The notes under the pieces were generated by a model. It made no database searches. It was not told the origin of the DNA and worked only from the letters and a program-made list of their open reading frames with translations. From Kosmotoga olearia TBF 19.5.1 (GTDB lineage: Bacteria; Thermotogota; Thermotogae; Petrotogales; Kosmotogaceae): a DNA stretch of 64,000 nt. Below, piece after piece: positions 22,613 to 40,040 of this stretch (position 1 is its first letter; each line of letters starts with the position of its first letter). Where the stretch lies: assembly GCF_000023325.1 (NCBI RefSeq), contig NC_012785.1, positions 1,736,001 through 1,800,000 of the forward strand, written 5' to 3'. The position numbers were made by a program, and so were the translations under genes.

Positions 22613-23338
22613 ATGAAAAAAAATATCTCGTTGGGAAAAAACGTTGTCATCGAGGAAGAAGTTGAAATAGGTAATAACTGTACAATAGGTCATAATGTGG
22701 TGATTAGAAGGGGAACGATAATCGAGGACAACGTGACGATCGGAGATAATACAGTTTTGGGTAAAGAACCATTTAAAGCGAGTACGAGTGCCACTACTTC
22801 AGTGAAGGAATTGCCTCCTCTGGTGATTGGCAAAGGTTCGATAATCGGTGCCGGTTGTGTTATATACAGAGGGGCAAAACTTGGGAAAAACTGTTTTGTT
22901 GGAGATCTTGCAACCATAAGAGAGGATGTTGAAATAGGTGATAAAACGATTGTGGGGAAAGGCGTAAGTGTTGAAAATGGTACAAAAATAGGAAAAAGGG
23001 TAAAGATTGAAACGGAGGCATATATTACAGCTTTTTCAACCATAGAAGATTACTGTTTCATTGCACCGGAAGTTACTTTTACCAATGATAACTTTCTCGG
23101 TAGAACAGAAGAGAGAAAAAAATATTTCAAGGGACCTGTTCTGAGAAAAGGAGCAAGAATCGGTGCCAATGCCACCATCTTGCCTGGAATAGAGATAGGT
23201 GAAGATGCCCTTGTAGCTGCTGGAAGTGTTGTTACACGAGATCTTGAACCAAGAAAAATTTATGTTGGTGTGCCAGCAAGATATTTTAAAGACGTTCCAG
23301 AAGAACAGTTGCTTGAAAATCAGGAATATTATGAATAA
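22613..23338 (+). CDS. Left-handed beta-helix N-acyltransferase (WbpD-like)
   Basis: A 241-residue hexapeptide-repeat protein. Most of it is (I/V)-G-x-x-x-x repeats (NNCTIGHNVVIRRGTIIEDN...), forming a left-handed beta helix that trimerises. TNDNFLGRTEERKKYFKGP is the active-site loop of WbpD/WlbB-type sugar acetyltransferases, which acetylate the 3-amino group with acetyl-CoA. ATG 22613 lies four bases after the aminotransferase stop, with GGGGTGA as ribosome site, so the two are coupled. At 241 residues it is longer than WbpD (about 190), due to extra N-terminal coils. Close relatives include FdtC-type enzymes, hence the WbpD role is inference. Confidence 0.8.
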   Translation: MKKNISLGKNVVIEEEVEIGNNCTIGHNVVIRRGTIIEDNVTIGDNTVLGKEPFKASTSATTSVKELPPLVIGKGSIIGAGCVIYRGAKLGKNCFVGDLATIREDVEIGDKTIVGKGVSVENGTKIGKRVKIETEAYITAFSTIEDYCFIAPEVTFTNDNFLGRTEERKKYFKGPVLRKGARIGANATILPGIEIGEDALVAAGSVVTRDLEPRKIYVGVPARYFKDVPEEQLLENQEYYE

Positions 23339-23440
23339 TAACGAGAATCCGAGACCCGAGAGACCGAGATTATAGAAGATCGGGTCTAGGGTCTTGGGTG
23401 CAGGGTATAGAAAGAGCTGCGAGAACCGAGAATCCGAGAT

Positions 23441-23540
23441 GGCCGCTACGCGGCGGGAAAGCACGCTTCGCGTGGGTGTGCCCAGCTGCACTGGGGTAAG
23501 CACGACTTTGTCGTGGATTAGCACGTTGGCGCGTAGGTAT
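23441..23540 (+). repeat. Mini-hairpin array 1 (about 20-bp period)
   Basis: Successive hairpins GCCGC-TAC-GCGGC (23442), CACGC-TTC-GCGTG (23462), CCCAG-CTGCA-CTGGG (23481) and CACGAC-TTT-GTCGTG (23501), then a degenerate unit (23522). The spacers resemble GGTAAG. Confidence 0.8.
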
Positions 23541-23679: not shown

Positions 23680-23742
23680 CTACTCCGAAGGAGTGCTCAC
23701 CCTTGGCGAAGCCAAGCTTACCCACGCTTAGCGTGCTTACCG
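23680..23742 (-). repeat. Mini-hairpin array 2, opposite orientation
   Basis: Hairpins ACTCC-GAA-GGAGT (23682), TTGGC-GAA-GCCAA (23703) and CACGC-TTA-GCGTG (23723), with 20-21 bases between starts. On the minus strand the spacers read GGTAAGC/GGTGAGC, as in array 1. Confidence 0.8.
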
Positions 23743-39297: not shown

Positions 39298-39416
39298 CCT
39301 GGGTGCCGATACCGGAGTGGGAAACACCCGGATCCATCCCGAACCCGGCCGTTAAGCCACTTCGGGCCGATGGTAGTGCGGGGGCAGCCCCGTGCGAGAG
39401 TAGGTAGCGCCCAGGG
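39298..39416 (+). rRNA. 5S ribosomal RNA
   Basis: About 119 bases; terminal helix CCTGGGTGC/GCGCCCAGG and conserved CCATCCCGAACCCGGCCGTT. It lies 35 bases after the 23S rRNA. Confidence 0.95.
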
Positions 39417-39455: not shown

Positions 39456-40040
39456 CGTTGTGCGTTGTACGTAACGACCGAGACTCGGGAGTCGAGAACC
39501 GAGATCCGGTGAAGAAAAATTAAAGAGCGAGAATGGATGTTGGAGACTGGAGCTTAGATAAAGATCGGGTATAGGGTCTGGGGTCTAGGTTGTAGAGAAA
39601 ATATTGAAAAGCAGAGATCTGAGAAAAAGATCGTTGTCGGTTGTGGGTCGTGCGTGAAGGCCAAAAAAACGAGAATCCGAGATGGCGAGAAGGCGAGAAG
39701 GCCGCTACGCGGCGGTACGAATCCCTTTCGGGATTGACACGAACTCCTGCGGAGTTGACTAGAACCACTACGTGGTTGTTCTGAACCGCTTCGCGGTTGA
39801 TTTATTACAACCTCGGAAATCTGGCTTGTCATCCTGAACTTGATTCAGGATCTATCATTCATGACTTTCGTATTCTCGTACTCTCAGTTCTCGAATACCG
39901 GATCTCGAATCTCGATGTTCTTAGCGAATAGCTTACTTTGTTTTTGATCAGGGAAAATGTTAAAATTCTGTGTAGGAAGTATCGTAATAGAAACTTTCAA
40001 AGATAGGATTTTCAGGCCGAAGGGATAGAGGGTTGGTTTT
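39456..40040. repeat. Composite CCGAGA repeat element with hairpin array (copy B)
   Basis: No gene is supported between the rRNA terminator and the GNAT gene. In order: GTTGTGCGTTGTACGT (39457-39472); CCGAGA units (39478-39507); a GATCGGGT-rich segment (39563-39597); GTTGTCGGTTGTGGGTCGT (39634-39652); CCGAGA units (39669-39690); the hairpin array (39700-39800); CCTGAACTTGATTCAGG hairpin (39829-39853); inverted CCGAGA-like units (39870-39918). The last 120 bases before the GNAT gene hold only AT-rich leader sequence. Confidence 0.85.
39700..39800 (+). repeat. Mini-hairpin array 3 (21-bp period)
   Basis: GCCGC-TAC-GCGGC (39701), AATCCC-TTTC-GGGATT (39720), AACTCC-TGC-GGAGTT (39742), AACCAC-TAC-GTGGTT (39763) and AACCGC-TTC-GCGGTT (39784). 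Spacers are GACACG, GACTAG and GTTCTG. Each stem has a different sequence but pairs perfectly. Confidence 0.85.

Follow-up and report, generated by a model that had tools for sequence, protein, structure and literature searches.

Among the hairpin repeats described to date, the cyanobacterial SDRs of Nostoc and its relatives, reportedly presented by Elhai et al. in 2008, are said to comprise units of 21-27 nt that form hairpins with compensatory changes, lie within heptameric tandem repeats and are confined to one clade. The 21-bp mini-hairpin arrays of Kosmotoga olearia, which are the subject of this study, appear to be closest in kind to these SDRs, a likeness drawn by description: a dispersed hairpin unit of 21 bp, compensatory changes and restriction to a clade are found in the Kosmotoga arrays as well. 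On the other hand, and unlike the SDRs, the Kosmotoga units follow one another head-to-tail at exactly 21 bp, share a grammar of loops and spacers and draw on a lexicon of stems. Moreover, they differ from the SDRs in belonging to the Thermotogota and in serving as insertion sites of introns.

Several other systems invite comparison. In K. olearia itself as well as in Mesotoga prima, CGTC-3 REPs with 9-bp stems and a CGTC end have been reported (PMC3733652); they share with the mini-hairpins the genome, the character of small intergenic palindromes and the lack of a known dedicated transposase, whereas the mini-hairpins feature 6-bp stems and triloops and are devoid of the CGTC tag. The palindromic repeats of Volvox organelles (PMC2670323) are likewise short stem-loops with conserved loops of 3-5 nt that spread in noncoding DNA, but they average 50 nt, show nested insertions and keep no fixed 21-bp register. 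REPIN/REP elements and their RAYTs (PMC3116915, PMC8266576) resemble the arrays as intergenic hairpins with compensatory changes, yet the arrays carry neither a GTAG tag nor inverted pairing, and the flanks of the Kosmotoga RAYT genes bear another repeat. Finally, class C group II introns are known to choose terminators and the stem-loops of attC as insertion sites (PMC4424553; PMC8919778). With these targets, i.e. intrinsic terminators and the attC sites of integrons, the Kosmotoga arrays have in common a DNA stem-loop followed by a short sequence and an intron just downstream, while they differ in being native tandem mini-hairpins without T-tract or known integrase, in which the intron inserts at the unit joint. 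A literature search among open-licence papers yielded no description of 21-bp mini-hairpins.

The window, i.e. the whole analysed stretch of 64,000 nt of K. olearia DNA, contains three arrays (23442-23521, 23682-23741 and 39701-39798), all of which had been recognized by a preceding sequence-only reading and are present as described there. The array at 39701-39798 (plus strand) consists of five perfect mini-hairpins: the 5-bp unit GCCGC-TAC-GCGGC (39701..39713) followed by the spacer GGTACG (39714-39719); AATCCC-TTTC-GGGATT (39720..39735), which has a 6-bp stem, a 4-nt loop and the spacer GACACG (39736-39741); AACTCC-TGC-GGAGTT (39742..39756) with the spacer GACTAG (39757-39762); AACCAC-TAC-GTGGTT (39763..39777) with the spacer GTTCTG (39778-39783); and AACCGC-TTC-GCGGTT (39784..39798), with which the array ends. 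The slot of the second unit is kept in dispersed copies of the array. The second array (23442..23521, plus strand) is composed of the units GCCGC-tac, CACGC-ttc, CCCAGC-tgc, which has one mismatch, and CACGAC-ttt, separated by spacers rich in G, for example GGTGTG and GATTAG, and the same first unit, GGCCGCTACGCGGCGG, indeed opens both plus-strand arrays of the window. The third array (23682..23741) is found in reverse orientation on the minus strand, where three units of the CACGC, CTTGGC and CACTCC types, spanning 23682-23735, are joined by spacers reading GGTAAG/GGTGAG on that strand.

A distance of 285 nt separates the start of the array at 39701 from the rRNA operon upstream of it, to which the 5S rRNA gene (39299..39415, plus strand) belongs. 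A degenerate short tandem repeat of the CGAGANNC type (39670..39700, plus strand) immediately precedes the array, and a TCATCCTGAACTTGATTCAGGATC palindrome (39829..39852, plus strand), which we take for the REP of CGTC type known from K. olearia, is located on its 3' side. Degenerate tandem words of 7-8 bp (CGAGANNC, GTTGTNG, GGGTNTNG) accompany the arrays at window positions 39460-39700 and 23330-23440. In Nostoc, heptamers are said to go along with the SDRs.

In general, the unit comprises a 6-bp stem, a 3-nt loop and a 6-nt spacer, which amount to exactly 21 bp. The period, previously estimated at about 20-21 bp, is sharpened by the start-to-start spacing of perfect 6-3-6 hairpins in an 887-kb sample of the genome, which equals 21 bp in 153 instances, 19 bp and 20 bp in one instance each and 22 bp in none. 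About 30 stem sequences are in use. The loops read T-N-Y in nearly all units and are closed by a C-G pair, so that the opposite strand mostly displays C-GNA-G; according to a statement in PMC6479982 that cites Yoshizawa 1997, GNA loops give rise to extraordinarily stable DNA mini-hairpins. Since the DNA parameters of ViennaRNA assign equal energy to GNA and TNC loops, the argument from loop stability rests on this published chemistry. The spacer conforms to G-N-Y-N-C-G in the main, that is the commonest, class, and the spacer classes GGTRAG and GCTATG/GAAGTG belong to other stems.

Across 31 aligned arrays, the stems (6.3% non-consensus) and the anchors of loop and spacer are near constant, while the centres of loop and spacer vary freely (31-45% non-consensus). 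The stems AACTCC, AACTCT and AACTCA are each fully paired and differ in the closing pair only. Arrays differ from one another by whole units, with the register kept. A clean insertion of a single unit with a matching empty site was not seen; what was observed are in-register differences of units and one conversion. In addition, the units carry no GTAG or CGTC tag and are not paired head-to-head (inverted).

That stems change from unit to unit with pairing retained had been noticed in the window sequence, and the claim is upheld by units chosen blindly with respect to their stems: among 260 neighbouring units picked by loop and spacer only, 202 pair at 6/6 positions and 37 at 5/6. The 73 distinct arm pairs are Watson-Crick paired at 80% of positions, compared with 42% (maximum 50%) when the 3' arms are shuffled. 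In 49 two-unit segments, 95.6% of the cells are paired and the covariation score amounts to 1.007, as opposed to 0.219 +/- 0.019 in shuffles (0/500 reach the observed value), slid structures reaching no more than 0.169; the excess of compensatory pairs is far above both kinds of control. All four Watson-Crick pair types occur at several stem positions, and G-U pairs are few. Perfect units are represented by 4.12 copies per distinct 15-mer, units with one mismatch by 1.16, nearly all of the latter being singletons; foldable units are the ones copied. Single mismatches of the G.T type are equally rare on the two strands, with nine on one and eight on the other, and therefore no RNA strand is favoured. 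Under RNA selection alone, wobble on the transcribed strand would be expected to be tolerated. That mismatches are rare would be expected from templated correction, but equally from selection for folding of the DNA.

The genome of K. olearia, a single contig of 2,302,126 bases (2.30 Mb), harbours about a hundred intergenic arrays. A DNA search returned 46 matching places and a covariance model 93 matches, and 88 arrays were counted in the 887-kb sample, which is made up of 45 stretches, about half of them picked around arrays. Neither outcome that the sequence-only reading had named as refuting, a lack of excess compensatory pairs or a lack of further arrays, was thus encountered. Although coding sequence makes up 81% of the sample, just one of the 88 has an overlap with a predicted gene. 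A repeat encoding protein, hinted at by 'PRSG-like heptads' in the sequence-only reading, was rejected on this ground. In 400 kb of the genome picked independently of arrays, hairpins with a stem of at least 6 bp and C-TNY-G loops reach 18.0 per 100 kb versus 1.45 in shuffles, an approximately 12-fold excess. Arrays are often placed between degenerate CGAGANNC repeats and REP-like palindromes: at least two copies of CGAGA within 120 nt upstream were found for 48/88 arrays as against 2% of random positions, and REP-like palindromes beside 37/88 as against 4%. No fixed orientation relative to neighbouring genes was seen in 83 contexts, the flanking genes being oriented +- in 27, -- in 23, ++ in 18 and -+ in 15 cases. 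Likewise, no fixed relation of the arrays to leading or lagging strand was seen, the units numbering 83 on the plus and 46 on the minus strand of one replichore and 53 and 33, respectively, in the other, the replichores being taken from gene-corrected GC skew.

Beyond K. olearia, the covariance model yielded 47 matches in a related genome (G006), 28 in K. pacifica and eight in a further relative (G008), followed by 0-4 in Mesotoga genomes. Two genomes at a greater distance (G065, G099) gave 3-4, and most of the 103 Thermotogota genomes searched gave no match at all. Pattern matches in named genomes fall to MAGs of Kosmotogales/Thermotogae. The 21-bp spacing is kept in all three main genomes (K. 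olearia, G006 and K. pacifica), and 12 stems are common pairwise with K. olearia. Much of the variation between units is an old lexicon of stems common to the three genomes of the Kosmotoga group. Since many stems are common to several species, part of the covariation is old, and the compensated changes did not all arise recently. Some contigs that were assigned to other Thermotogota (G004, G041 and related MAGs) are 97-99.5% identical to K. olearia over 2 kb and carry its arrays; they are probably mis-binned, and the array matches of G004 and G041, which stem at least partly from such contigs, were not reckoned as spread.

In the best orthologous comparison, a contig of 99.5% identity, one array differs, namely by a 3-bp duplication. 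On a contig with 97% identity, GCCGC/GCGGC takes the place of GCCAC/GTGGC within a changed block of about 40 bp, and such a joint change of both arms would be as expected of conversion by (or recombination with) another array. No mini-hairpin was caught in the course of having one arm corrected from the other; a single orthologous locus was comparable, and there the paired change comes with a conversion tract.

A further line of evidence concerns group II introns. The K. olearia genome contains six PF00078 matches and Rfam group II intron matches of type D1D4-3, RF02001 among them, and an exact match to GTGTGCCCGGCATGACATAC locates 11 intron 5' ends at genome positions 89944, 159720, 219644, 548825, 1109548, 1320274, 1392957, 1405367, 1414380, 1526448 and 1886214. 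We infer that these introns are of class C (group IIC-type), an assignment based on the Rfam model and the insertion habit rather than on a reverse-transcriptase tree. All 11 are located directly after a mini-hairpin, and 10 of them exactly at hairpin + 6 nt, i.e. at the sixth spacer base and thus the 21-bp unit joint, in the same orientation; wherever a 3' junction was read for these ten, the intron is directly followed by the opening base of the next hairpin, one deleted copy excepted. The remaining intron (1320274) comes after an array hairpin as well, but one that is read on the opposite strand. Because this class of introns is targeted to stem-loops in DNA, the insertion habit strongly suggests that in the cell the mini-hairpins form when the DNA is single-stranded. 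With respect to replication, introns lie on the minus strand in 3/5 cases in one replichore and on the plus strand in 6/6 in the other, and their orientation follows gene-corrected GC skew in 9/11 (Fisher about 0.06), a link that is only suggestive.

No reverse-transcriptase match was obtained in K. pacifica, G006 and G008, all of which contain arrays, and one Mesotoga genome (G009) has 18 such matches and almost no arrays; moreover, those Mesotoga introns of the same kind that were examined mostly follow a different palindrome, GTCATTCTGAGCTTGACTCAGAAT and its relatives. Because K. pacifica and G006 carry arrays without a reverse-transcriptase match, the introns are to be seen as passengers: the group IIC intron uses the units as landing sites and is probably not their maker. 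As sole maker of the arrays it was rejected, given arrays without reverse transcriptase on the one hand and reverse transcriptase without arrays on the other.

A pair of perfect palindromes, 38 and 39 bp in length (genome positions 1355117-1355154 and 1384185-1384223), of the form ATCGAGTAGGAG...CTCCTACTCGAT, represents the 3' terminal hairpin of the intron made perfect; in the intron itself this hairpin is imperfect. The two palindromes derive from two intron sub-types, are placed at array units, have normal 3' and irregular 5' junctions, and are the only ones in the K. olearia genome fitting the searched pattern. They look like products of aborted target-primed reverse transcription followed by fold-back (snap-back) copying, the alternative being correction of a truncated intron copy. 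Under either origin, hairpin-templated copying constitutes the simplest account.

Taken together, the arrays are best regarded, with a probability of little more than one half (roughly 0.55), as DNA mini-hairpin repeats of the Kosmotoga group that are mainly selfish or neutral, keep their arms complementary at the DNA level and offer their units to introns for landing. We infer with moderate confidence that a DNA-level process maintains complementarity, and the best reading is that hairpin-templated copying, propagation of foldable units only, or both, are responsible. According to this mechanism, the hairpin would form at a replication or repair fork and one arm would be copied from the other by template switch or snap-back, while propagation would be limited to foldable units whenever an array is duplicated or undergoes conversion through recombination. 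By nucleating the fold, GNA triloops would promote this process, and the group IIC intron would be a passenger landing on the units. Template switching is known to create and maintain hairpins, and was seen in rRNA genes with an enrichment of loops that are stable in DNA (PMC8794818). Of the explanations offered by the sequence-only reading, those at the DNA level, i.e. a structure in single-stranded DNA or a copying process that makes palindromes, are favoured, and selection for RNA structure is less supported. The DNA-level reading draws on the introns at the hairpin-spacer joint, the GNA loops, the rare and strand-neutral non-Watson-Crick pairs, the mixed gene orientation and the two palindromes. 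Furthermore, the DNA fold of the minus strand of the window array consists of the five hairpins.

Selection at the RNA level, whereby the arrays would be transcribed and act as 3'-UTR stabilisers, terminators or processed small RNAs, is decidedly unlikely. The strong covariation, the position of the window array downstream of the rRNA operon, the convergent gene pairs that form the commonest context (27/83) and the array RNA, which folds better than shuffles (z -2.58), are consistent with it, but the arrays adopt all orientations relative to adjacent genes, intermediates of the G.U kind are as rare as those of the C.A kind and no Rfam family matches over the arrays in the 124 kb searched. The minimum-energy RNA fold also differs from the series of mini-hairpins, the plus strand of the window array preferring cross-unit pairing, and terminator-like sites around this array number 1 versus 0.9 in shuffles. 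An intrinsic terminator was rejected, the one weak site between 39300 and 40100 coinciding with unit 5 and the internal units being followed by a 6-nt spacer. That the arrays are REP-type elements moved by the Y1 (RAYT-like) transposase of the genome, in analogy to the RAYT/REP systems described in other bacteria (PMC8266576, PMC3116915), is very doubtful. K. olearia does possess two RAYT-like genes (1341659-1342348 and 1355258-1355947, with GGGACAG flank motifs) encoding proteins of 95% identity, and an intact array follows one of the genes at a distance of about 100 bp, while a degenerate array lies downstream of the other. However, this adjacency is found in K. olearia only, since the RAYTs of K. 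pacifica and Mesotoga that were examined have no adjacent 21-bp arrays; the flanks of Kosmotoga and Mesotoga RAYTs bear a different motif (AAAATAGGGACAGAC with its variants) that is similar to the GGGGWSAS TIRs of TIRYTs (PMC3733652), and the units lack GTAG tag and head-to-head pairing. As the main cause, a RAYT-driven REP was rejected, the RAYTs of relatives being differently flanked and K. pacifica having a RAYT but few arrays.

It is equally improbable, to the same degree as selection on RNA, that group IIC machinery made or spread the arrays as short non-autonomous retro-copies or by-products of aborted retrohoming. The unit joint is the insertion point of the introns, the two snap-back palindromes would be aborted events at array units, and K. 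olearia combines the most arrays with the introns; against this stand the arrays in the three genomes without reverse-transcriptase match, the near-absence of arrays in G009 with its 18 matches, the different palindrome preceding the examined Mesotoga introns, and the snap-back products themselves, which measure 38-39 bp without spacer and are no 21-bp units. The scantiest chance is given to selection of the arrays as DNA sites of a protein that organises the chromosome, an idea put forward for the BIMEs of E. coli. Such a role would accord with a unit length of about two helical turns, near-invariant loop and spacer anchors around variable spacer centres and intergenic location, but the copy number is patchy among close relatives (93, 47, 28 and 8 matches, and 0-4 in Mesotoga), and array position is tied neither to gene orientation nor to replichore.

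Conceivably, though this is rather unlikely, the unit propagates itself as a DNA structure: a hairpin with a GNA loop would be copied and made perfect at forks, through snap-back or template-switched synthesis, or else by a borrowed group IIC reverse transcriptase. If so, covariation would arise with no RNA under selection, the arrays would amount to a minimal mobile element that needs only to fold, and the group IIC introns would be their specialised passengers.

Compensatory change is usually taken as proof of RNA structure, and the Kosmotoga arrays unite many dispersed copies and near-perfect covariation with signs that DNA folding rather than RNA is kept. If DNA-level maintenance holds true, they would constitute a natural test system for the creation and maintenance of hairpins by template switching (PMC8794818). 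How very small hairpin repeats originate, a question that has stood since the SDRs of Nostoc, would then become testable in a cultivable thermophile. In addition, the arrays provide group IIC introns with a native tandem landing site outside terminators and attC, at which the insertion point is exact to the base.

Two minor observations may be added. A relative of another family (G022) has dispersed hairpins of a different kind (AAGGGACCTGCGGTCCCTT, TTAAGGGGCTTCGCCCCTTAA), the triloops of which are the same as here. In K. olearia, neighbouring arrays share their orientation in 43 of 59 pairs within 15 kb versus 29.8 expected, a value reached by 0/2000 permutations, and some of these pairs span genes.
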